This document shows positions 1 through 43,336 of a stretch of 44,555 nucleotides of DNA, one piece after another. The translations under genes and the position numbers were made by a program. How positions within the stretch are numbered: the first letter of the stretch is position 1; each line of letters opens with the position of its first letter. The notes below the pieces were generated by a model. It searched no databases and had not been told where the DNA came from. It was given only the letters and a program-made list of their open reading frames with translations. The stretch is from an uncultured Acidilobus sp. JCHS (GTDB lineage: Archaea; Thermoproteota; Thermoprotei_A; Sulfolobales; Acidilobaceae): the NCBI GenBank assembly GCA_000495735.1, contig AYMD01000012.1, positions 1-44,555 on the forward strand, in the 5' to 3' direction.

Positions 1-1750
1 GGAGGTTACAACAGCCCCCTCACGGCCTCATCGGTGCTTGCGCAGTGGAGCGGCTGGCCCGCCAAGAGGTACCGGCCTGCTCTCGTACGGCTATGGCGAC
101 GGGGGAGGGGGACCCAACGAGGACATGGAGCTAAGGTTTAACGTAATAAATGAGCTGCCAGGGCTCCCGAGGCTCGTCCACGCTACGCCCTCGGAGTACT
201 TCAAGGCGATAGACGTCAATGGCCTTGAGAGGTGGAGGGGAAGGCTCTACGTTGAGACCCACAGGGGCACGTACACGAGCCACTCGCTCATGAAGGCGCT
301 CCACTTCGAGGCCGAGAGGTGGATTAGGGAGCTCGAGGCCTGGTGGGCGCTCTCAGGCTCCTATGACAGGGGCAGGGCCCAGTCCTACTGGAAGGTCATA
401 ATGAGGGACGAGTTCCACGACGTCTTGCCAGGGTCAGCCATTAAGGAAGTCTACGACGAGGTCTACAGGGAGCTAGGCTCCCTCATCAGCGAGCTGAGGG
501 CCGAGGCCTCAAAGGTCATGTCATCCTTAGCTGGCGGAGGGGATGGCCTGGCGGTCTTCAACTCGCTGCCCTGGAGCAGGTCAGGCTACGTAATAGTTGA
601 CAGGCCCCTTAAGGGCTCACAGCGCGTTGACGAGGGCTACCTCGTTTATGTAAGCGCCCCGCCCATGGGCTTCACGCCCCTGAGGCCAGCGGACCCGGGG
701 GACAGGGCTACTGCGAGGAGGGCGGGCGACTCGATAGTCCTTGAAAGCTCAGCGCTGAGGGTGACCATAGCCCCCGACGGCTCTATAACTTCGATTGCGC
801 TCAAGGCCACTGGCGACGAGCTGGTCAGCGGCAGGGCCAACCAGCTGGCCATCTACCAGAACTCGCCTGGCTGGGCGGACGCCTGGGACATAGAGCCTGG
901 CTACGAGGCTGGCGAGGTTAAGCTCAGCGCCGACTCCGTTGAGATCAAGGACAGCGGCCCGCTTATGGCGTCAGCCCTGCTGAGGTACAGCTTCGGCAGG
1001 AGCTCCGTGACACAGGAGGTCAGGCTCTACGCCGGCCTGCCCTTTGTGGAGTTCAGGGTGCGCATAGACGCCGTTGACAGGGAGCTCATGCTGAAGGCCT
1101 GGCACTCCTTCAACGTCAACGCTGACAGCTACGCATACGGCGCTCCCCTCGGCGTGCTGGAGGAGCCGGCCCACAAGAACACCAGCTGGGAGAAGGCAAT
1201 GTTCGAGGTGCCCTTCCAGAAGTTCATCGACCTCTACGACTCGGGCAGGGGCGTCGCTCTGCTCTCGCCGAAGAAGTACGGGGCCAGCGTCATAGGCAAC
1301 AGGGTCGGGCTCACGCTGCTCAGGAGCCCCATGTTCCCCGACCCCTCAACGGACCTCGGCCCCCAGCAGTTCACTTACGCCGTGATGCCGCACCTGGGGG
1401 ACTGGAGGCATGCGAAGGTGCCGAGGATTGCCTACGAGTACGCCTTCCCGCTGACCGTCAACAACGGAAGTAGGGAGGCCTCCCTCATGGAGCTTTCGCC
1501 CGAGAACCTCGTCCTCGAGGCCGTCAAGGCGCCAGAGGACGGCGAGGGCTTGGTGGTCAGGGTCTTCGAGGCCTACAACTCGTCAGGCGTCGGAACCCTC
1601 AGGGCGCCCTTCAGGGTGGCAGAGGCCGTGAGCCTTGACATACTAGAGGAGGAAGTGGTGCCCAGGCAAATAGAGGTCAATGACAACACCGTGAGGTTCT
1701 CCTACAGGCCCAGGGAGGTAATAACGCTGCTGCTAAGGCCTTCACGCTAA
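1..1750 (+). CDS. Alpha-mannosidase, GH38 family (5' partial, one apparent frameshift)
   Basis: This is the C-terminal two thirds of a glycoside hydrolase family 38 alpha-mannosidase, which removes alpha-mannose from glycans. The family motif SYGYGDGGGGP is read in frame 2, followed by the central helical and large beta-sandwich domains to TAA at 1748-1750. The first 69 bases are in frame 1 and read GGYNSPLTASSVLAQW, the normal GH38 sequence just before that motif. The frame therefore changes near position 70, by one extra base or two missing ones. The catalytic Asp lies upstream, outside the window. A decayed copy of this 3' end exists at 6316-6427. Family assignment is secure; whether the gene is intact is not. 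Confidence 0.88.
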   Translation, partial: EVTTAPSRPHRCLRSGAAGPPRGTGLLSYGYGDGGGGPNEDMELRFNVINELPGLPRLVHATPSEYFKAIDVNGLERWRGRLYVETHRGTYTSHSLMKALHFEAERWIRELEAWWALSGSYDRGRAQSYWKVIMRDEFHDVLPGSAIKEVYDEVYRELGSLISELRAEASKVMSSLAGGGDGLAVFNSLPWSRSGYVIVDRPLKGSQRVDEGYLVYVSAPPMGFTPLRPADPGDRATARRAGDSIVLESSALRVTIAPDGSITSIALKATGDELVSGRANQLAIYQNSPGWADAWDIEPGYEAGEVKLSADSVEIKDSGPLMASALLRYSFGRSSVTQEVRLYAGLPFVEFRVRIDAVDRELMLKAWHSFNVNADSYAYGAPLGVLEEPAHKNTSWEKAMFEVPFQKFIDLYDSGRGVALLSPKKYGASVIGNRVGLTLLRSPMFPDPSTDLGPQQFTYAVMPHLGDWRHAKVPRIAYEYAFPLTVNNGSREASLMELSPENLVLEAVKAPEDGEGLVVRVFEAYNSSGVGTLRAPFRVAEAVSLDILEEEVVPRQIEVNDNTVRFSYRPREVITLLLRPSR

Positions 1751-1855
1751 GGTGCCTTAAGCTTCAGGCGATGCCTCAGCTGTAACCCTCTTGCACCTGC
1801 AGAACTCGGTGTTGCCCTTCATGGCCTCCTCAAGGTAGCCGAGGCGCACGAGCTT
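1630..1855. repeat. Left copy of direct repeat bracketing the pst operon
   Basis: This segment matches 6316-6518. It holds the end of the mannosidase gene plus the end of the wHTH regulator gene in convergent orientation. Bases 1808-1855 are identical over 48 nt to 6471-6518; the mannosidase-tail half is more diverged. Homology stops abruptly at 1855. The mannosidase end is intact here and the regulator end is a fragment; the other copy is the reverse. Confidence 0.85.
1760..1855 (-). pseudogene. Remnant of the wHTH regulator C-terminus
   Basis: Read on the minus strand this gives KLVRLGYLEEAMKGNTEFCR, almost the same as the last 25 or so residues of the intact regulator encoded at 6438-7352 (KLVRLGYLEEAMKGNTKVYR). 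It lacks the rest of the gene and the original stop codon, so it is a truncated duplicate created at the left junction of the pst block. Confidence 0.8.
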
Positions 1856-2232
1856 GCCTGAACTTCTTCCCCCAGTCGCAGCTGTGCTCGATCACTCTGA
1901 GAGCGAAGAGGCCTGCCCGTTTAAGGTAGCCTTCATGACCCCTCATCGATAACCGCAAAGGGGATACTGGTTACGAGCTCCGCGGAGCCGCATATTGTTG
2001 CGAGGGAGGCCCCAAGAAGGCTAGGTCTAATACAAGGCCGTTTCCTCAGGGAGAGCGCTCAGAGACGTAGGCAGTACGCCGAATAGACTTGGAGCTGGCT
2101 TGTTTAGAGGGAGGACGGTCTTTAACTACTATACTACTTGTAATACCATAGGGCTCTGTTGCATATGTAAACACTGTTGAAACTATATAGGAAATATAGG
2201 TTATGTACGTCTATCTAAATTGTATACGTAGA
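1856..2232. other. Gene-free stretch upstream of pstS
   Basis: I see no complete gene here. A plus-strand frame at 1934-2086 reads like decayed coding sequence (it contains SAEPHIVAREAPRRLGL) but has no start, and I do not recognise it. From about 2110 the sequence becomes AT-rich, unlike its surroundings, as expected for the control region of the following operon. Confidence 0.4.
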
Positions 2233-2233
2233 G

Positions 2234-2243
2234 CTTAAAAATC
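2234..2243 (+). promoter_or_regulatory. TATA box of the pst operon
   Basis: The sequence CTTAAAAATC lies about 35 nt before the pstS ATG at the end of an AT-rich stretch. Archaeal TATA spacing places the transcript start near 2262-2268, giving a very short leader. I could not define a phosphate-control operator, although the AT-rich region 2110-2230 would be the place for one. Confidence 0.5.
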
Positions 2244-2273
2244 CGTTCATAGCACTTAGCGCGGCTGGTATGC

Positions 2274-3536
2274 ATGGCTAAGGGTCTCTCAACAGCGGCC
2301 TACGCGATCATAGCCGTTGTCGTCATAGCCGCGATAGCGGGAGCGGCATGGTACGTGATGCGGTCCAAAGGGGGCTCAAGCGCTCCCAGTACCACGACGA
2401 CACGAACTTCCATAACTAGCTCAACTGGCAAGACAACGTCAACCTCAACGCCTGCAGGCACTCCTGCCTCCTCCATTTCTGCCTCCATAGTCGCAGGCGG
2501 CTCCACCTTCGTCATGCCGCAGATGAACTCCTGGATCCAGGACTTCGAGAAGGTCTACCCCAACATCCAGGTAACGTACAACGGGGTGGGCAGTGGGGCT
2601 GGCATCAGCAACTTCCGCCAGGGCGCTTACGACATAGGGGCCACAGACGCGCCAATACCGAGCAACCTTTACGCCAATATAAGCCAGGCCAAGGGCGGGA
2701 TCATAGAAATCCCAGACATCGTTGGGGCAGAGGGCATAATTTACAACATACCGGGGTTCAACCAGAGCAAGTACGGCCCGCTCAACCTAACCGCTGACGT
2801 CCTGGCCAAGATCTACCTGGGCCAGATACAGTACTGGGACGACCCTGCAATCCAGCAGCTGAACCCACACTTCAAGTTCCCGCACCAGCCCATAATTGTA
2901 GTTCACAGGTCTGACGCGAGCGGGACCACTTACGTGTTCACCCTGTGGCTCTACAAGTCCTCCAGCGCCTGGAGGAGCTCTGGGGTGGGCTATGGCTTCA
3001 CCGTGAACTGGCCCGTCGACCAGACGGGAAGGGGCCTGGGCGGCAAGGGCAACCCAGGGGTCACCGAGCTCGTGAAGAGCAACGCGTACTCGATAGGCTA
3101 CGTTGAGTTCCAGTACGCCATTGCAAATAACATAACCATGGCCTCCGTCCAGAACCCTTCCACAGGCCAGTTCCTTCAGCCCACGACCCAGACCGTGCTC
3201 AGTGCCGTTTCGTCAGTGAACCTGAACTCCCTGCCGAGCCCGACCTCAGACATAAGCAGCATGACGGACCTACTCCTTAACGTCAACGCCAGTGGCGCCT
3301 ATCCCATAGTGACCTTCTCATACCTGGTGATCCAGAAGAACTACAGCGACTTCAACAAGGCCGCGGCAATCTACATCTTCCTGCACTGGGTCTACACGCA
3401 GGGGATGAACCAGAGCGTGATACTAACGGGTTACCTTCCGCTGCCCAGTAACGTCAGGCAGTACGTGCTTAACGCACTGAACCAGATTACATACAACGGG
3501 CAACCAGTGTACACGCTGCTAAGTGGTGTTCAATGA
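2274..3536 (+). CDS. pstS: Phosphate ABC transporter substrate-binding protein PstS
   Basis: This 420-residue lipid- or membrane-anchored protein captures phosphate outside the cell and delivers it to PstCA. Residues 8-28 form a hydrophobic anchor, followed by a Ser/Thr-rich linker (about 33-70) typical of archaeal surface binding proteins. The mature domain starts with GGSTFVMPQMNSW and contains the phosphate-contact segments YNGVGSGAGISNF and RSDASGTTYVFTLWL, all diagnostic of PstS. The ATG at 2274 suits the TATA box and the anchor. The stop overlaps the pstC start (ATGA), so the four pst genes are one operon. No phoU follows. Confidence 0.95.
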   Translation: MAKGLSTAAYAIIAVVVIAAIAGAAWYVMRSKGGSSAPSTTTTRTSITSSTGKTTSTSTPAGTPASSISASIVAGGSTFVMPQMNSWIQDFEKVYPNIQVTYNGVGSGAGISNFRQGAYDIGATDAPIPSNLYANISQAKGGIIEIPDIVGAEGIIYNIPGFNQSKYGPLNLTADVLAKIYLGQIQYWDDPAIQQLNPHFKFPHQPIIVVHRSDASGTTYVFTLWLYKSSSAWRSSGVGYGFTVNWPVDQTGRGLGGKGNPGVTELVKSNAYSIGYVEFQYAIANNITMASVQNPSTGQFLQPTTQTVLSAVSSVNLNSLPSPTSDISSMTDLLLNVNASGAYPIVTFSYLVIQKNYSDFNKAAAIYIFLHWVYTQGMNQSVILTGYLPLPSNVRQYVLNALNQITYNGQPVYTLLSGVQ

Positions 3537-4423
3537 ACGCGAAGCGGGCTAAACTGGAAAAGTCATATCTGTTTTTCCTCCCCGGCGCCTTAGCGTTAAC
3601 TATAATAGTAATTTCACTTTTTGTTTTCCTGTTTGTCAACGCTCTTCCCGCGTTTCACTATGCAGGGAAGTATGTTCCTGAGTTCCTGCCTGCGATTTAT
3701 GGAACTGCCATTGTGACCACGGTGGCCGTGCTGCTCGCTATACCCCTCTCCATAGGCCTCGCTATCTTCATAGCGGAGCTGTCGCCGAAGGCCGTCAGGG
3801 ACGTCCTAATAAACATTAGCGACCTGATGGCAGCCTTTCCGACGGTCGTCTACGGGCTCTGGGGCCTTACAGAGCTGGGACCCTTCCTCAAGTCCACGCT
3901 CTTCGCTTTCCTCAACCGCTACCTGGGGTTCCTGCCTGTCTTCTCTGGAACACCGACAGGGGTGAGCTACCTGTTGGCCTCGATGGTTCTGGCAGTCATG
4001 ATATCCCCGTTCGCCTCGTCTCTTATAAGAGAGATTTATCTGCAGGTCCCCAGGAGCTTGGATGAAGGCATCTACGCCCTGGGCCTTGGGAGGTGGGAAG
4101 TGGTAAGGATCAGGCTGGGCTTCATCAAGAGGGGCATCGTAGGCGCCCTGGCCCTCGCGTTCGGGAGGGCCGTAGGGGAGACGGTAGCAGTCGCAATGAC
4201 CGTCGGAGGGGTTGTGGCCATCAACAAGAGCCTGCTCTCCCCTGGGATAACGATTCCCGCGTATATAGCTAACCTGTTCGGTGAGGCGTTTTCAACTGTC
4301 GATGTAGCATCGTTCTTCATGCTATCCCTCATACTGCTCGGCATCGGGACGGCCTTCTTAGCGGCGGCCAGATTGTTCATAGTCTCAGAGCAGAGGGAGG
4401 TGAGGACCTACGGCAAGGCTTAA
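3533..4423 (+). CDS. pstC: Phosphate ABC transporter permease PstC
   Basis: This 296-residue inner permease subunit forms the phosphate channel with PstA. It has about six membrane segments and the binding-protein-dependent permease EAA loop around EGIYALGLGRWEVVRIRLG, followed by GRAVGETVAVAMTVGG, the PstC version of the conserved PstC/PstA motif. The ATG overlaps the pstS stop by four bases. The gene ends in TAA at 4421-4423. Removing one base near 4418 would run this frame straight into pstA, so the junction deserves checking. Confidence 0.93.
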   Translation: MNAKRAKLEKSYLFFLPGALALTIIVISLFVFLFVNALPAFHYAGKYVPEFLPAIYGTAIVTTVAVLLAIPLSIGLAIFIAELSPKAVRDVLINISDLMAAFPTVVYGLWGLTELGPFLKSTLFAFLNRYLGFLPVFSGTPTGVSYLLASMVLAVMISPFASSLIREIYLQVPRSLDEGIYALGLGRWEVVRIRLGFIKRGIVGALALAFGRAVGETVAVAMTVGGVVAINKSLLSPGITIPAYIANLFGEAFSTVDVASFFMLSLILLGIGTAFLAAARLFIVSEQREVRTYGKA

Positions 4424-5246
4424 GGACGCGCTGCTCTGGACGGCGGCGCTGGGATCTACGCTACTTCTGTTCACGCCGTTCCTCTGGATAATCGGAGACG
4501 TAATAGTGCGAGGTGCTTCCGTAGTGATAGAGCAGGGGGCAAAGTTCTTCACTGCACCCCCTCCGACCACGGACCTCGGCCTCGGCGGGATAGGCACCGT
4601 CCTTCAGGGCTCGCTTGTCTTAGTGGCAACCGCCCTGGCCTTCGCGGCCCCGATAAGCGTCCTGGCAGGGGTCTTCATAGCATTCTACCCTAACTCTTTC
4701 ACGGCGAGGCTGGCGCGCCAGCTGGCTGAAGTCGTCGTGGAGTTCCCAACTATAGTAATAGGCCTGTCAGTCTTCGGGCTCTTCATAGTGGACCTTCACT
4801 GGGGCCTGAGCGCGCTGACGGGCGCAATAGCCCTGGCTGTTGTCATTATGCCCTACATGACCATACAGATATCCGAAGCCTTGAGGGTCCCCAGGGCGAT
4901 GTTCGAGGAAACACTTTACGCGTTGGGAATGAGCAGGCTGAGGACCATGCTGTTCGTGATGTCCGCTGGGAGAAGGGGCCTCCTCACGGGACTGCTCATA
5001 GGCATGGCTAAGGGGTTCGGCGAGACCGCCGCCTTGCTGTTCACGGTAACGACGTCCTTTAACCTGTTCTTCACATCCTTTAACAGGCCAGTGAGCGCCA
5101 TACCTGTGTTGATATATTTCTACGGCCTGGCGCCCTACGAGAACTGGAGGGAAGTGGCCTGGGGGGCGGCCTTCGTCCTAACGGTCCTGGTTCTCGCCCT
5201 TTTCTCCCTAGTAAGGGTACTGGCTAGGGGAGGGATGAGCAGATGA
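4404..5246 (+). CDS. pstA: Phosphate ABC transporter permease PstA (start unclear)
   Basis: This is the second permease subunit, with the EAA-type loop EETLYALGMSRLRTMLFVMS and the PstA motif KGFGETAALLFTV. The first canonical in-frame start is GTG 4506, but that would delete the first membrane helix. The open frame from 4404 encodes LKDALLWTAALGSTLLLFTP, a convincing first helix, yet has no ATG, GTG or TTG. Either initiation uses a rare codon, or a one-base error at the pstC-pstA junction hides the real start. The 3' end overlaps pstB by four bases. Confidence 0.9.
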   Translation, partial: GPTARLKDALLWTAALGSTLLLFTPFLWIIGDVIVRGASVVIEQGAKFFTAPPPTTDLGLGGIGTVLQGSLVLVATALAFAAPISVLAGVFIAFYPNSFTARLARQLAEVVVEFPTIVIGLSVFGLFIVDLHWGLSALTGAIALAVVIMPYMTIQISEALRVPRAMFEETLYALGMSRLRTMLFVMSAGRRGLLTGLLIGMAKGFGETAALLFTVTTSFNLFFTSFNRPVSAIPVLIYFYGLAPYENWREVAWGAAFVLTVLVLALFSLVRVLARGGMSR

Positions 5247-6007
5247 GCGGGCACTGCGCGTTCAGAATAGAGAGGCTCAACGTGTGGCTCGACTCCAAGC
5301 ACGTGCTCAAGGACGTCTCGGACGTTATCATTCCCAGGAACGTCGTGTTCTCGATAATGGGACCCTCGGGGAGCGGGAAGTCAACGCTCCTGAAGACTCT
5401 TAACAGGCTCGTGGAGACCTACCCGAACGCCAGGGTCGAGGGGAAGGTGCTGTTCATGGGGGAGGACATCTTTTCCATGGACCCCGTCAAGCTGAGGAGG
5501 AGGGTCGGCTACGTGTTCCAGCAGCCCAACCCGTTCCCACACATGAGCATCTACGACAACATAGCCTATCCCGTGAAGGCCCTGGGGCTGGCTAAGAGCA
5601 AGAGGGAGATCGACGATATAGTGAAGGACTCCCTAGTGAAGGCCAACCTCTACGATGAGGTCAAGGACCGTCTGCACGCCAAGGCTTCCGCCCTTTCAGG
5701 AGGTCAGCAGCAGAGGCTAGTGATAGCGAGGGCCCTGGCCCTTCGGCCCTCAGTTCTCCTTATGGATGAGCCGACATCGATGATAGACGTGGTCGGCGCT
5801 AGGAAGATAGAGGAGCTGATACTGCAGCTCAAGAAGGAGATGACCGTGGTTGTTGCGACCCACACGCCCCAGATGGCAAGGAGGATATCGGACTACGTTC
5901 TCTTCCTCTATGACGGCAGGGTGGTCGAGTGGGGTCCCAAGGAAGTAATGCTCGAGGCGCCAGAAAACGATCTCACCAAGATGTACGTAGCCGGACGCTT
6001 TGGGTGA
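5243..6007 (+). CDS. pstB: Phosphate ABC transporter ATP-binding protein PstB
   Basis: This 254-residue cytoplasmic ATPase powers phosphate import through PstCA. Walker A is GPSGSGKST at 40-48, the Q-loop is at 93-94, the signature LSGGQQQR at 151-158, Walker B VLLMDEP at 171-177 and the switch His at 207 (ATHTP). The segment VFQQPNPFPHMSIYDNI is the typical PstB Q-loop sequence. Its ATG overlaps the pstA stop (ATGA). It is the last gene of the operon; all expected catalytic residues are present. Confidence 0.96.
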   Translation: MSGHCAFRIERLNVWLDSKHVLKDVSDVIIPRNVVFSIMGPSGSGKSTLLKTLNRLVETYPNARVEGKVLFMGEDIFSMDPVKLRRRVGYVFQQPNPFPHMSIYDNIAYPVKALGLAKSKREIDDIVKDSLVKANLYDEVKDRLHAKASALSGGQQQRLVIARALALRPSVLLMDEPTSMIDVVGARKIEELILQLKKEMTVVVATHTPQMARRISDYVLFLYDGRVVEWGPKEVMLEAPENDLTKMYVAGRFG

Positions 6008-6315
6008 GACCACCTTCTACCCCTTTACCGTGCTGACTAGCTCTTAGGCTTTGAAACTAATCTAGGTGATCAGTCTGATCGACCTTCCTATCACAAAATC
6101 CGTGAGCCCTCCTTTTGAGGACGCTTCAGACGCTCAGCCTTAGCCCCCTAATAGTGAGGGTCCTCGCAGTCTCACGGGCTGAGGCCCTTCCTCTCCTCGT
6201 CTTAGTTCCCTGGCGGCTCTGGAGACTTTGGCTGTCACTGAGGTCCTCAGCGTCCTTAGCTATCTCGACCGACTCCTTGACTTCAGTGGCGCGGTCGTGG
6301 TGAGGGGAGGGCCAA
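6008..6315. other. Gene-free stretch after pstB
   Basis: No intact gene. From about 6138 a plus-strand frame (LSLSPLIVRVLAV) weakly resembles the mannosidase segment ELSPENLVLEAVK, so the decayed mannosidase tail that is clear from 6316 may begin here. The first 110 bases after pstB hold no recognisable signal. Confidence 0.35.
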
Positions 6316-6427
6316 GAGCCTGGACGTACTTGAGGAGAGGCGAGACATAATATAGGAATTAAATTAAAGGCAACGCTGTTAGGTCCTCTTGCAGACTGAG
6401 GAGATAGTAACGCTGCTGAGGCCCTCA
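6316..6427 (+). pseudogene. Remnant of the alpha-mannosidase 3' end
   Basis: The end of this segment reads EEIVTLLRPSR, matching REVITLLLRPSR, the last residues of the mannosidase that ends at 1750. Further upstream NAVRSSCR corresponds to NTVRFSYR but in another frame, with stops between. It is a broken duplicate lying tail to tail with the regulator gene, as expected for the arrangement before the pst genes arrived. Confidence 0.75.
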
Positions 6428-6518
6428 CGATCAGGCCTCAGCTGCACCCCCTCTTGCACCTGTAGACCTTGGTGTTGCCCTTCATGGCCTCCTCAAGGTA
6501 GCCGAGGCGCACGAGCTT
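6316..6518. repeat. Right copy of direct repeat bracketing the pst operon
   Basis: This is the partner of 1630-1855. The mannosidase part (6316-6427) is decayed and the regulator part (from 6438) is the end of the intact regulator gene. Between the two parts this copy is about 16 bases shorter than the left one. Similarity is obvious by eye throughout and reaches identity at 6471-6518. Confidence 0.85.
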
Positions 6519-7352
6519 ATCGAGCCTCCTGTATAAGGGGCTCTTGGGTATGTTGGTCTCATTCATCACCTGGGAGGCGGTGGCCTCCCCTCCGAGCCTT
6601 GATATCGCTGACAGTATGGCCCTGTCCCTGTCGTCGAGGGCCTCGGCCGGCCCCGCCCCTCCCCTCCTACGTAATACAGCCGCGGCGGCCCCTGCGACAG
6701 CTCCGACAACGACGATCGCCACCACTATAGGTATGAAGTAGGACGTTATCGGCGTGGGCTTGACGCTGGTCGTGGTGGTTGGGCTCGTGGCGGTGCTAGT
6801 AGAGGAGATAGTCGTGATAGGCGTCGTGGTGGGCGGTGAGATCATGTACTCTACCGTAAGCGGGCCCGACGGCATGACCAGGACAGGCGAGCCGTTAACG
6901 TAGAACACCTGCTGCGGTATCGGGCTCACGTAGACGGGTGTCGAGTACCTCGGCAGGGTCACGTCGCCAGCGCAGGGCATGGTGAAGTTGGCCTCCCAGA
7001 GGGCGCCCTCCTTAGATGTAGCCTGGAGGGTCAGGTAGGAGACGTTCACGAGGCCTGGCTGGTCCACGGCGACCAGTAGGTCCGTTCCGTTGTACTGGAC
7101 GGGCAGCGGCGTGGTGCCGTTCTCGACCGCGAAGTAGCTTACAGGTGACCTCGCCGCGACTACGAGGAGCGAGGGGACGCTCGTTACGTTATAGACTGCG
7201 TAGAGCGTCAGGTCGCCCGCCTCGTCTATCCTGGCGGCGGCGCGGCAGGCCAAGGGGGTCGACTGCGACCGGGCTGGGTGAGCTGTTAGCGTAAGGAAGG
7301 ACAGGGAGAGCGCGAGCAGTAGCAGGGCCGCTACGGCGTGCCTAGCGACCAC
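6438..7352 (-). CDS. Membrane-anchored winged-helix regulator with extracellular domain
   Basis: The 304-residue protein has a signal peptide (1-30), an extracellular beta-rich domain with several N-glycosylation sequons (31-170), a Thr/Ser-rich stalk (171-203), one membrane helix (205-227) and a cytoplasmic winged helix (238-304; DRDRAILSAISRLGGEATAS). Such one-component membrane regulators are known in archaea, where the outer part may sense a surface signal and the inner part binds DNA. The signal is unknown. It follows the DUF4382 gene on the same strand with a gap of about 60 bp. A copy of its last codons lies at 1760-1855. Confidence 0.75.
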   Translation of the reverse strand: MVARHAVAALLLLALSLSFLTLTAHPARSQSTPLACRAAARIDEAGDLTLYAVYNVTSVPSLLVVAARSPVSYFAVENGTTPLPVQYNGTDLLVAVDQPGLVNVSYLTLQATSKEGALWEANFTMPCAGDVTLPRYSTPVYVSPIPQQVFYVNGSPVLVMPSGPLTVEYMISPPTTTPITTISSTSTATSPTTTTSVKPTPITSYFIPIVVAIVVVGAVAGAAAAVLRRRGGAGPAEALDDRDRAILSAISRLGGEATASQVMNETNIPKSPLYRRLDKLVRLGYLEEAMKGNTKVYRCKRGCS

Positions 7353-7383
7353 TAAGGCCCCTGAGGACTCAAAGGGAGAGGTC

Positions 7384-7394
7384 AGAAAAAAGGC
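7384..7394 (-). terminator. Poly-T terminator after the DUF4382 gene
   Basis: On the minus strand a run of six T follows the DUF4382 stop by about 20 nt, the usual archaeal intrinsic terminator. It lies before the regulator gene, so the regulator may be partly uncoupled from the gene upstream. Confidence 0.4.
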
Positions 7395-7413
7395 TGTCTA
7401 TTGGCCCTAGGGC

Positions 7414-7986
7414 TCAGCTAGTGGTAGTGGTGTTGGTTGAGGTGGTGGGCGGTGAGTAGTAGGCCTCGGCCGTGATCACGGGCCTGAGTATGACCTGGCC
7501 CGTCCCGGTCGTGGTCAGGTGGGGCCCCATGTATATGACTAGGTAGGCAGTCCTCCCGCTGGTCACCTGTAGGCCTCCTTTGATTATCGGTATCTTTAGA
7601 ACGCTACTCGGCAGCGAGGCGGAGACGTTGACAGGTCCCATCTGAACGGTCACGGCAGAGACGACGAGTCTGACCTCGGTGTAGTTGCCAGGCGGCAGGG
7701 TCACGGAGGAGAGGAACGAGAGGGAAGAGCTAAGCTGAACCGTCATGGTCTTGTTCGAGACCGTTATCCAGCCCTTGCTGGTGCTGTGGATCATTATCGA
7801 GGTTATGGTTAGGTAAATGGCCGTCGGCGACGAGTTGCTTGAGGAGCTGGAGGGGTTGCCTGGGTCGGTCAGGTAGAAGTAGACGGTCCCGCTCCTCGTC
7901 ATGTAGTAGTAGGCCCCTACGGCCGCGACTACCACTACTATGACCACTACGGCCGCTATGACGCCCGCTGAGACGGACCTCCTCAT
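7414..7986 (-). CDS. DUF4382-domain surface protein
   Basis: This 190-residue protein has an N-terminal membrane anchor (about 8-30), then a beta-rich domain beginning GTVYFYLTDPG, with LTITSIMIHS and LPPGNYTEVRLVV, which are characteristic of DUF4382. The family occurs in bacteria and archaea, has a transthyretin-like beta fold and no known activity. Several NxS/T sequons and a Thr-rich tail fit an exported glycoprotein. It shares a divergent promoter region with the secreted protein gene at 8135 and lies directly upstream of the membrane-bound regulator. Confidence 0.75.
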   Translation of the reverse strand: MRRSVSAGVIAAVVVIVVVVAAVGAYYYMTRSGTVYFYLTDPGNPSSSSSNSSPTAIYLTITSIMIHSTSKGWITVSNKTMTVQLSSSLSFLSSVTLPPGNYTEVRLVVSAVTVQMGPVNVSASLPSSVLKIPIIKGGLQVTSGRTAYLVIYMGPHLTTTGTGQVILRPVITAEAYYSPPTTSTNTTTTS

Positions 7987-8018
7987 GCCCTCACTCAGCC
8001 TAACCGTAGGCTGCCCCC

Positions 8019-8031
8019 TTTATTAGGGATG
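8019..8031 (-). promoter_or_regulatory. TATA box for the DUF4382 gene
   Basis: On the minus strand CCCTAATAAAGG lies about 35-40 nt before the ATG at 7986, so the transcript has a very short leader. The core CCCTAATA recurs in the opposite promoter at 8089-8099. Confidence 0.45.
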
Positions 8032-8066
8032 ACATGAAACTGGCGCGGGAAGGCCCGGGAAAGGGC

Positions 8067-8084
8067 GCGGGAAGGGCTTCCCGC
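8067..8084. promoter_or_regulatory. Palindromic operator candidate in the divergent promoter region
   Basis: GCGGGAAG and CTTCCCGC form a perfect 8-bp inverted repeat separated by two bases. It sits between the two TATA boxes, directly upstream of the plus-strand one. A half-site-like GCGCGGGAAGG also occurs at 8043-8053. A site here could control both divergent genes; the binding protein is unknown. Confidence 0.5.
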
Positions 8085-8088
8085 CATG

Positions 8089-8099
8089 ACCCTAATAGG
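8089..8099 (+). promoter_or_regulatory. TATA box for the secreted helical protein gene
   Basis: CCCTAATAGGG lies about 40 nt before the GTG start at 8135, placing the transcript start near 8120. It shares the CCCTAATA core with the divergent promoter. Confidence 0.4.
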
Positions 8100-8134
8100 G
8101 CCCTGAGGACACCCCCTGGGCCGGGCGTGAGAGC

Positions 8135-9607
8135 GTGAGGGTCAGCCTGGCCCGCAGGGGCCTCGCTGTGTTGATGGCCCTGGCGGTCGGCCTGCTCGCG
8201 TTGTCGCCGCTAGCGGTATTTGTGACCAGGGCCCAGACCTCTACAACTACGTCAACTCAGGCCGAGCAGCAGGCGGCTGAGGTTCTTTTGAACATCACTC
8301 AGAGAGCAATAGCCGCTGCCAAGTCCCTCGGCCTCAGTGACGTTAAGGCCGAGGGCCTCTACTCCGAGGCCCTCTCCTACTACAAGCAGGGTGAGTACAG
8401 CCAGTGCATATCAGTTGCTATAGGCATAATGAGGCTGCTGGCCTCGGGGCTGAAGAGCTCTAAGCCTACGCCAGTGCCTGAGGCAGTGGGGCTTGAGGCC
8501 CAGTTCAAGGCTATAGAGGCCTTCATATCCTCCACTACGGCTCTCAACGAGACCCAGAAGGAGGAGGCCCTGTCCCTGGTCAACGAGGGCCTTAAGTACC
8601 TCTCACAGGGCAACGTGAGCGCTGCCGCCGCAGTTCTGTCCGAGCTAAAGCAGCTCCTCAGCAACTACTCCGTGAAGGTCTCTGAGTACGCCAAGCACGC
8701 CATGATAGGCAGGATAGCCAAGCACCTGGCCCACGCCAAGAAGGAGGTAGAGGGGAACTGGTCCTTCCTAGAGCAGGCCAACGTGAGCTCGTCAGAGGAG
8801 GCCGATAAGATCTTCGGAACCCTTGAGGAGCTCCTCAACAGGTCAGCCGTCAACGCGACCCCGGCCCAGCTCGTCGAGATGGCCAAGATGGCAGAGGAGC
8901 TGGAGTCAGAGGCCCCTGAGCTAGAGCCCTTCCCCAACGCGTCAGGCCGCGTGATAGCTGTCGAGGCCCAGGCCCACGTGATTAAGGGCATCAACGAGAG
9001 CGTCCAGGCCATACAGCCGCTGCTCCAGCAGCTCAGCGGCAGCGAGAACCAGACAGCCGAGAAGGCGCTCAACCTGCTTGAGGAGGCGCTCAATGACACC
9101 TATACTGCCGTGCTCCTGTTCGCTAAGGGCAACGACACGGGCTCCCTCCTGATGCTCAACCAGTCAATAAAGCTGGCTAACCAGAGCCTGAGCCTGGCGG
9201 AGAACCTGAGCTCAAGCTCCCACGGGCCAGCTAGGGCAGTAGGTAAGATGATAGCAAGGGCCGACAGGCTCGTCATAAGGCTTGACGAGAGGCTCTATGC
9301 TTTCATCAGCTCACAGAACATAGTTGGCAAGGTGCTGGAGCTTGACGTAGTCCTGCTCTACAGGGTCAACGAGACCACGTACATAGGCGTAGCGAGGATA
9401 GTAAACGGCACGACGCCTCACGTCCACGTGATCTTCGTGCTGATAGAGTTAACGAACTCCACTAAGGTCTCAGGCAACCTGACCTCGGCCCAGCTGCCGG
9501 TCAAGGCAATGGTGGTAGGGCTAGTCAAGGCCAGGGTCCAGGGCCTCTACCTGGTTGAGGCCTACACAGTTACCTTAGAGAACGCGACCCAGGGCTTGCC
9601 TTCTTAG
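8135..9607 (+). CDS. Secreted alpha-helical protein rich in N-glycosylation sequons
   Basis: I do not recognise a named family. The 490-residue protein starts with a signal peptide (about 1-33), then is almost wholly helical with Leu/Ala/Glu-rich heptad-like stretches and repeated NxS/T sequons (for example NVSSSEEA, NESVQAI, NLSSSSHG). The last 100 residues turn beta-rich (IVGKVLELDVVLLYRVNETT). No C-terminal membrane anchor is seen. It resembles archaeal secreted coiled-coil surface proteins. GTG 8135 places the signal peptide at the N-terminus. It is divergent from the DUF4382 gene with a shared control region. Confidence 0.65.
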   Translation: MRVSLARRGLAVLMALAVGLLALSPLAVFVTRAQTSTTTSTQAEQQAAEVLLNITQRAIAAAKSLGLSDVKAEGLYSEALSYYKQGEYSQCISVAIGIMRLLASGLKSSKPTPVPEAVGLEAQFKAIEAFISSTTALNETQKEEALSLVNEGLKYLSQGNVSAAAAVLSELKQLLSNYSVKVSEYAKHAMIGRIAKHLAHAKKEVEGNWSFLEQANVSSSEEADKIFGTLEELLNRSAVNATPAQLVEMAKMAEELESEAPELEPFPNASGRVIAVEAQAHVIKGINESVQAIQPLLQQLSGSENQTAEKALNLLEEALNDTYTAVLLFAKGNDTGSLLMLNQSIKLANQSLSLAENLSSSSHGPARAVGKMIARADRLVIRLDERLYAFISSQNIVGKVLELDVVLLYRVNETTYIGVARIVNGTTPHVHVIFVLIELTNSTKVSGNLTSAQLPVKAMVVGLVKARVQGLYLVEAYTVTLENATQGLPS

Positions 9608-43314: not shown

Positions 43315-43336
43315 CTTTCTGCAAATTTGCAGAAAG
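43315..43336. repeat. 22-bp perfect palindrome
   Basis: CTTTCTGCAAA is followed directly by its own reverse complement. It lies 126 bp after the FkbM stop and 13 bp before the 62-nt repeat. It could be an operator for a dimeric protein or form a cruciform. Confidence 0.7.

Follow-up and report, generated by a model that had tools for sequence, protein, structure and literature searches.

We found that a window of 44,555 nt (contig AYMD01000012.1 of an uncultured Acidilobus sp. JCHS; G000 among our genome labels, with G054, G037 and the like denoting relatives) carries a membrane regulator gene and a gene for a secreted helical protein, and that this regulator-helical pair is a conserved unit across Thermoproteota. 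The locus is probably the Acidilobus version of that unit, in which a single-pass transmembrane (TM) regulator (6438..7352, minus strand, 304 aa) controls its secreted partner (8135..9607, plus strand, 490 aa) and may also sense it. A phased array of half-sites (8047..8082) lies at the helical gene's promoter, and a DUF4382 surface protein gene (7414..7986, minus strand, 190 aa) lies 61 bp upstream of the regulator gene on the same strand. When coordinates and domains were rechecked, the three open reading frames (ORFs) were as a preliminary description of the sequence had placed them.

Two Pfam models, HTH_IclR (E 9e-7) and HTH_24 (E 2e-6), matched the regulator C-terminus above cut-off and identify it as a winged helix. 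Its AlphaFold2 model (mean predicted local distance difference test score, pLDDT, 85.9) comprised an N-terminal hydrophobic helix (residues 2-23), a beta ectodomain (35-171), a Thr/Ser-rich linker, a TM helix (206-229) and the winged helix (235-299) on the cytoplasmic side, and with the Pfam match this predicted layout bears out the earlier claim of an external domain joined to an intracellular winged helix. Six N-X-S/T sequons in the ectodomain are putative glycosylation sites. The nearest solved fold of the ectodomain was eukaryotic Ost1/ribophorin I (6ezn_A; VIA Z 12.5, root-mean-square deviation (rmsd) 2.8, 146 aligned), followed by the N-domain of M1 aminopeptidase (1z1w; Z 11.2, rmsd 3.6, 133 aligned). 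Identity to both was about 10-12%, and the likeness to Ost1 may reflect either ancestry or a common fold. The Ost1/ribophorin I match (residues 29-185) takes in the stretch ahead of its TM helix. NCBIfam returned no above-cut-off match for the regulator, helical or DUF4382 proteins, nor for 10 homologues and neighbours; DUF7343, which we take to be a haloarchaeal relative, matched one homologue below cut-off (E 0.0065). The helical protein (Alignment A1; AlphaFold2 model, mean pLDDT 66) has a signal-like N-terminus, helical hairpins and a C-terminal five-stranded OB-like (oligonucleotide/oligosaccharide-binding-like) beta domain. No Pfam family matched it above cut-off, and a Foldseek comparison of the model with the PDB gave weak matches, with nothing at E <= 0.001 (best E 0.04).

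The regulator profile matched 226 of 299 genomes of the phylum (94 of 125 genera) at E <= 1e-10. From this list we chose 60 regulator loci, mostly one per genus, including three (G300, G139, G437) already known to have the pair. Neighbouring genes were assessed by composition (one N-terminal hydrophobic segment plus helical composition), with a helix threshold of 0.5 that was set knowing the window protein's value (0.54). The results revealed a secreted helical gene adjoining the regulator in 37/60 loci by composition, and in 43/60 when matches to hidden Markov models of the helical families were added; 3 of the 144 other ORFs of the same loci had this composition. Weak relatives of the helical profile occurred in 13 genomes outside the family, with the regulator adjacent in 8, the match inside the regulator itself in one, and neither arrangement in 4. 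Profile comparison joined the helical subfamilies at 95.3 to 100% probability, linking the Acidilobaceae family with the f16/18/21/23/40/42 type and with f15, and the f14 type with both of these. In most loci of f15, presumably the ammonia-oxidising archaea, a small winged helix-turn-helix gene, the regulator and the helical gene form an operon whose last two genes overlap by a few bases. The first gene of this operon encodes an HTH_45/Sso10a-like winged helix and has a phased array of its own (L243, L248-L253, L257).

The array in the window consists of GGGA at 8047, 8057 and 8069 and TCCC at 8079, half-sites 10-12 bp apart set against the TATA-like element of the helical gene (CCCTAATAGG, 8090..8099, plus strand; read from the sequence and identical in G054). 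Its last two units form the repeat at 8067..8084, GCGGGAAG-GG-CTTCCCGC, which had been described as a perfect palindrome; the 8-bp arms are indeed perfect, but the centre is a non-palindromic GG, which makes it an inverted repeat and a piece of the larger array. Because the window holds 12 inverted repeats with arms of at least 8 and loops of at most 4 (this one included; 2 intergenic), the repeat is not beyond chance by itself, and its strength alone was rejected as the mark of a signal. Its conservation and its longer array are beyond chance. Corresponding inverted repeats, altered on both arms, occur in G054 and G037, where the half-site spacing is exactly 10 bp, and the low-GC Caldisphaera array has four TTCCC at 11, 10 and 10, the last running into TTCCCTAATA. 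The array was found at the helical promoter of six genomes in two genera (G000, G054, G037, G046, G066, G068), and it persists where the helical gene has moved and over a change from 60% to 31% GC, which supports a conserved cis-element at this promoter.

A genome-wide scan for TCCCN{5,8}TCCCN{5,8}TCCC gave 48 matches in 8 genomes, 44 of which were classified (the remaining four overlap classified ones). The majority of the 44 lay within ORFs. The intergenic matches with a gene within 300 bp were at the six helical promoters, a DUF4382 promoter in G037 and one unrelated gene (G065), and two further matches in G000 had no called gene nearby. The reversed pattern is an unfair control in Acidilobus because it matched far more often than the pattern (46-67 vs 3-9 per strand). 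The helical gene itself was present in 8/48 genomes of the family, three in one genus (g1, which we take to be Acidilobus) and five in another (g5, Caldisphaera plus Candidatus Hestiella). The full regulator (E <= 1e-73) was present in all six genomes with the array. The two Hestiella genomes, 75% and 92% complete, carry the helical and ectodomain-only genes, but neither the full regulator nor the array was found there. This pattern, together in 6 and jointly missing in 2 of the 8 genomes with the helical gene, agrees with the regulator as the putative array binder.

Across the phylum, we compared 27 helical genes outside a regulator operon with 111 control promoters of the same loci. TGAAAC/GTTTCA occurred upstream of 20/27 helical genes vs 7/111 controls (Fisher 8.6e-13; 1367 six-mers seen), TGAAACG/CGTTTCA of 15/27 vs 1/111, and TCCCTTA of 10/27 vs 0/111. 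Chains of at least three TTYC/GRAA half-sites at 9-13 bp, a pattern whose half-sites and spacing were picked after the promoters were read, were present at 21/27 helical promoters, 7/8 f15 operon promoters and 5/111 controls, and spacings peaked at 10-11 and 20-22 bp. Acidilobaceae promoters scored in 4/6 cases by these chains and in 6/6 by TCCC/GGGA. In a held-out set of 10 loci, mostly from genera already sampled, seven had a helical neighbour, with 115 bp or more of upstream sequence in six; among those six, CGTTTCA was found in 6/6 and a chain of at least three in 5/6. TCCC/GGGA pairs were rejected as the phylum half-site (1 found vs 0.58 expected upstream of helical genes, 37 loci), TTTC/GAAA-type half-sites being used in their place. 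The exact palindrome GAAACGN{0,3}CGTTTC had 12 sites in 10 genomes, 8 of them at helical promoters; eight of these genomes were picked for a palindrome seen at the helical gene, and only scarcity elsewhere is informative (4 sites vs 6 for the reversed-pattern control). Clades that have unlike half-sites also differ in the recognition helix of the regulator (PKTPLYRR vs PRTSMWR), which is no more than suggestive of the regulator as the binder. A possible second target is in G193 (L282 1501-2603, C11), where another perfect operator copy lies ahead of two genes, one encoding 103 aa and the other an ABC-transporter ATPase.

We propose that several regulators, held in the membrane, would use their winged helices to bind the half-sites, which are helix-phased along one side of the DNA next to the helical TATA box, and that the bound regulators would set the output of the helical gene. 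An arrangement of same-face half-sites beside a TATA box is suited to membrane-held dimers, several of which would bind cooperatively. We consider binding of the array by the regulator likely. Activation of the helical gene is less sure but still more probable than not, and would be expected before repression; archaeal sites that adjoin the transcription factor B recognition element (BRE) and TATA box from upstream are more often activating. In Acidilobus the array lies between the helical gene and the divergent DUF4382-regulator operon, which has its own TATA-like element (CCTAATAAAGG, 8018..8028, minus strand; read from the sequence, with a similar one in G054), and the regulator would therefore also control its own operon. 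Conditions at the cell surface would be sensed by the ectodomain, with the helical protein, once secreted, as a plausible go-between, which would make a loop like that of CpxP and CpxA. We propose this loop because hairpins like those of the helical protein lie within four regulator ectodomains (L092, L103, L212, L242) and because a lone ectodomain is the operon partner of the helical gene: in 5/5 g5 genomes a gene for ectodomain and TM helix, with no winged helix, lies directly 3' of the helical gene (the G067 copy is cut by a contig end). Judged from the sequences, these arrangements suggest contact between the regulator and the helical protein, and feedback of the latter on the former is a tentative proposal, somewhat under even odds. 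A broader version is more doubtful still: an envelope-homeostasis circuit ancestral to Thermoproteota, in which a regulator with a ribophorin/M1-type ectodomain would assemble along phased half-sites, with a nearly one-gene regulon and its own secreted helical product as the sensed molecule, as a kinase-free counterpart of Cpx-CpxP.

Several observations weigh against the proposed scheme. No helical gene adjoins the regulator in 17/60 loci, and within Acidilobaceae the regulator is remote from the helical gene in G037 and separate from the helical-ectodomain operon in G046. The exact palindrome was at no promoter in 14 further genomes, mostly those without a called adjacent helical gene, its three sites all lying within ORFs; this form is thus limited to some clades. 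Promoters of the regulator itself seldom carry a site (GAAACN{0,6}GTTTC in 2/60, GAAA-N5-9-TTTC in 3/60), and autoregulation is therefore not general. That regulator and array are both missing in Hestiella may go back to a single event, and those genomes are incomplete. Another factor could be the array binder.

The alternative that survives best, doubtful but worth keeping in view, is a simple output system in which the regulator runs the helical gene via the array and senses an unrelated cue (pH, membrane state or a nutrient), with no feedback and with the helical protein as a surface structure or chaperone. The same pair and operator evidence applies to it, and only L212 and L242 of the 60 ectodomains match helical profiles; the consistent pairing of ectodomain-only and helical genes in g5 and the hairpins fused into four ectodomains argue against it. 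We regard it as unlikely that a different DNA binder, such as a soluble winged-helix factor, occupies the array, with the regulator-helical link having another cause or the regulator targeting other genes. Persistence of the array in G037 and G046, where the regulator is distant, would fit such a factor, as would the small winged-helix gene that opens the f15 operon, but that gene was seen only in f15 loci, and full regulator and array are co-present in 6/6 and co-absent in 2/2 genomes.

The preliminary description had treated the three genes as one surface-sensing module, with the DUF4382 protein as an integral part and perhaps the sensed ligand, a reading we now consider improbable. The DUF4382 protein is a member of PF14321 (E 7e-14; 52.6 bits vs cut-off 25; profile positions 1-136 of 136), with relatives in only 12/59 genomes of the order. 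The three genes adjoin in 2/3 Acidilobus genomes having the helical gene. G000 and G054 share the gene order, which in G054 runs alpha-mannosidase (GH38), regulator, DUF4382, divergent helical gene and cyclase; in G037, another member of the genus, the trio is scattered, at about 723, 523 and 583 kb. The separated DUF4382 gene of G037 has its own TCCC array, as a three-gene module would suggest, but no array was found at the Caldisphaera DUF4382 promoter (G046). Since the genes lie apart in G037 and G046, the trio was rejected as a conserved unit, and DUF4382, seen with the pair in G000 and G054 alone, is a local, lineage-specific addition. Thus, the part of the description that joined regulator and helical protein stood (43/60 loci) and recurs in the phylum, whereas the three-gene unit did not and its order is only partly kept; neither an unconserved neighbourhood nor a palindrome missing in relatives, the outcomes named there as contrary, turned up. 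It is very improbable that the phased repeats serve as a constitutive element of a strong promoter or of chromatin: although they adjoin and partly overlap the BRE/TATA region, few other promoters of those loci have them (5/111), and in the genomes scanned they are nearly private to these genes.

Further features of the surroundings were recorded. Across the array, the divergent neighbour of the helical gene is DUF4382 in G000 and G054 and a short pilin-like protein in the Caldisphaera genomes G046 and G068 (L072 12672-13115; L065 902-1354); its likeness to type IV pilins was judged by eye, and Pfam gives it nothing. A second, more distant pairing of an ectodomain-only gene with a helical-like gene occurs in all three Acidilobus genomes (L075 933-8150; L149; L150) and in G000 lies after a pro-kumamolisin/subtilase-type protease gene. 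In the window, pstSCAB (2274-6007) sits within the GH38-regulator junction (1773-6518). The pst operon seems to have been inserted with partial duplication, because 1773-1855 is a 93% copy of the regulator 3' end (6435-6518) and the junction is uninterrupted in G054; a phosphate link of the locus was rejected, pstSCAB being missing from this junction in G054. Positions 1-722 of contig C8 of G000 copy window 1519-2240 at 99.7% (L076 1-4576 vs window 1-2240), where the GH38 mannosidase gene is split by about 2 kb of other genes; the duplicate stretch may be an assembly overlap, a strain mixture or a duplication. At 43315-43336, between genes, lies a stronger repeat than that at 8067-8084, a palindrome with perfect 11-bp arms and no loop.

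We found no description of the regulator-helical pair or the array in the literature searched, which left out most subscription journals. Transmembrane transcription regulators (TTRs) are defined as single proteins that combine a predicted DNA-binding domain with one or more predicted TM regions, and in the accessible part of the census by Demey et al. 2023 the single-pass layout is commonest and Thermoproteota are among the TTR-rich clades (PMC10269533). The window regulator, with its Pfam winged helix above cut-off and modelled TM helix at 206-229, shares this combination and the single-pass layout; the same part of the census describes no partner gene, operator array or ectodomain of this kind (PMC10269533). 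ArnR and ArnR1 of Sulfolobus acidocaldarius, as the accessible text has it, are membrane-bound one-component winged-helix regulators of surface-structure genes whose binding needs two boxes (PMC6396743, PMC4858521). The likeness is that all are membrane-bound archaeal one-component winged-helix regulators, but ArnR/ArnR1 (arCOG05969) have an N-terminal HTH (helix-turn-helix), a HAMP-like and a sensing domain and two C-terminal TM helices, with boxes TCGAC-N5-GTCGA (PMC6396743), whereas the window regulator starts with its ectodomain and has a single TM helix before a C-terminal winged helix, no NCBIfam ArnR match, and GGGA/TCCC units at its putative target promoter. No secreted helical partner is described for ArnR/ArnR1 in the portions of these sources at hand (PMC6396743, PMC4858521).

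Ost1/ribophorin I and M1 aminopeptidase are alike in ectodomain fold, with no enzyme or oligosaccharyltransferase context here. CpxP and Spy are helical proteins, and CpxA-CpxR with CpxP/Spy, from Gram-negative bacteria, differs in being a two-component kinase system with a large regulon; we liken it by layout and claim no sequence relation. In the accessible account, cpxP is divergent from its sensing system, and CpxP is highly induced by that system and inhibits CpxA (PMC6737893). The shared trait, a secreted protein gene divergent from the regulator operon, is seen in the window and in G054, but is not general, as other loci of the phylum are convergent or form one operon. By its predicted layout the regulator is a TTR, a known kind, but not an ordinary one; the evidence is strong for the pair and the array. 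Extracytoplasmic signalling in Thermoproteota is little explored, and because the family (226/299 genomes) has a defined partner and operator, what its membrane regulators sense and control is now directly testable, for instance in a member that is amenable to genetics and retains the pair. With the repeated promoter signal of its helical gene, the pair looks like an unstudied means for these archaea to monitor and adjust their own surface.

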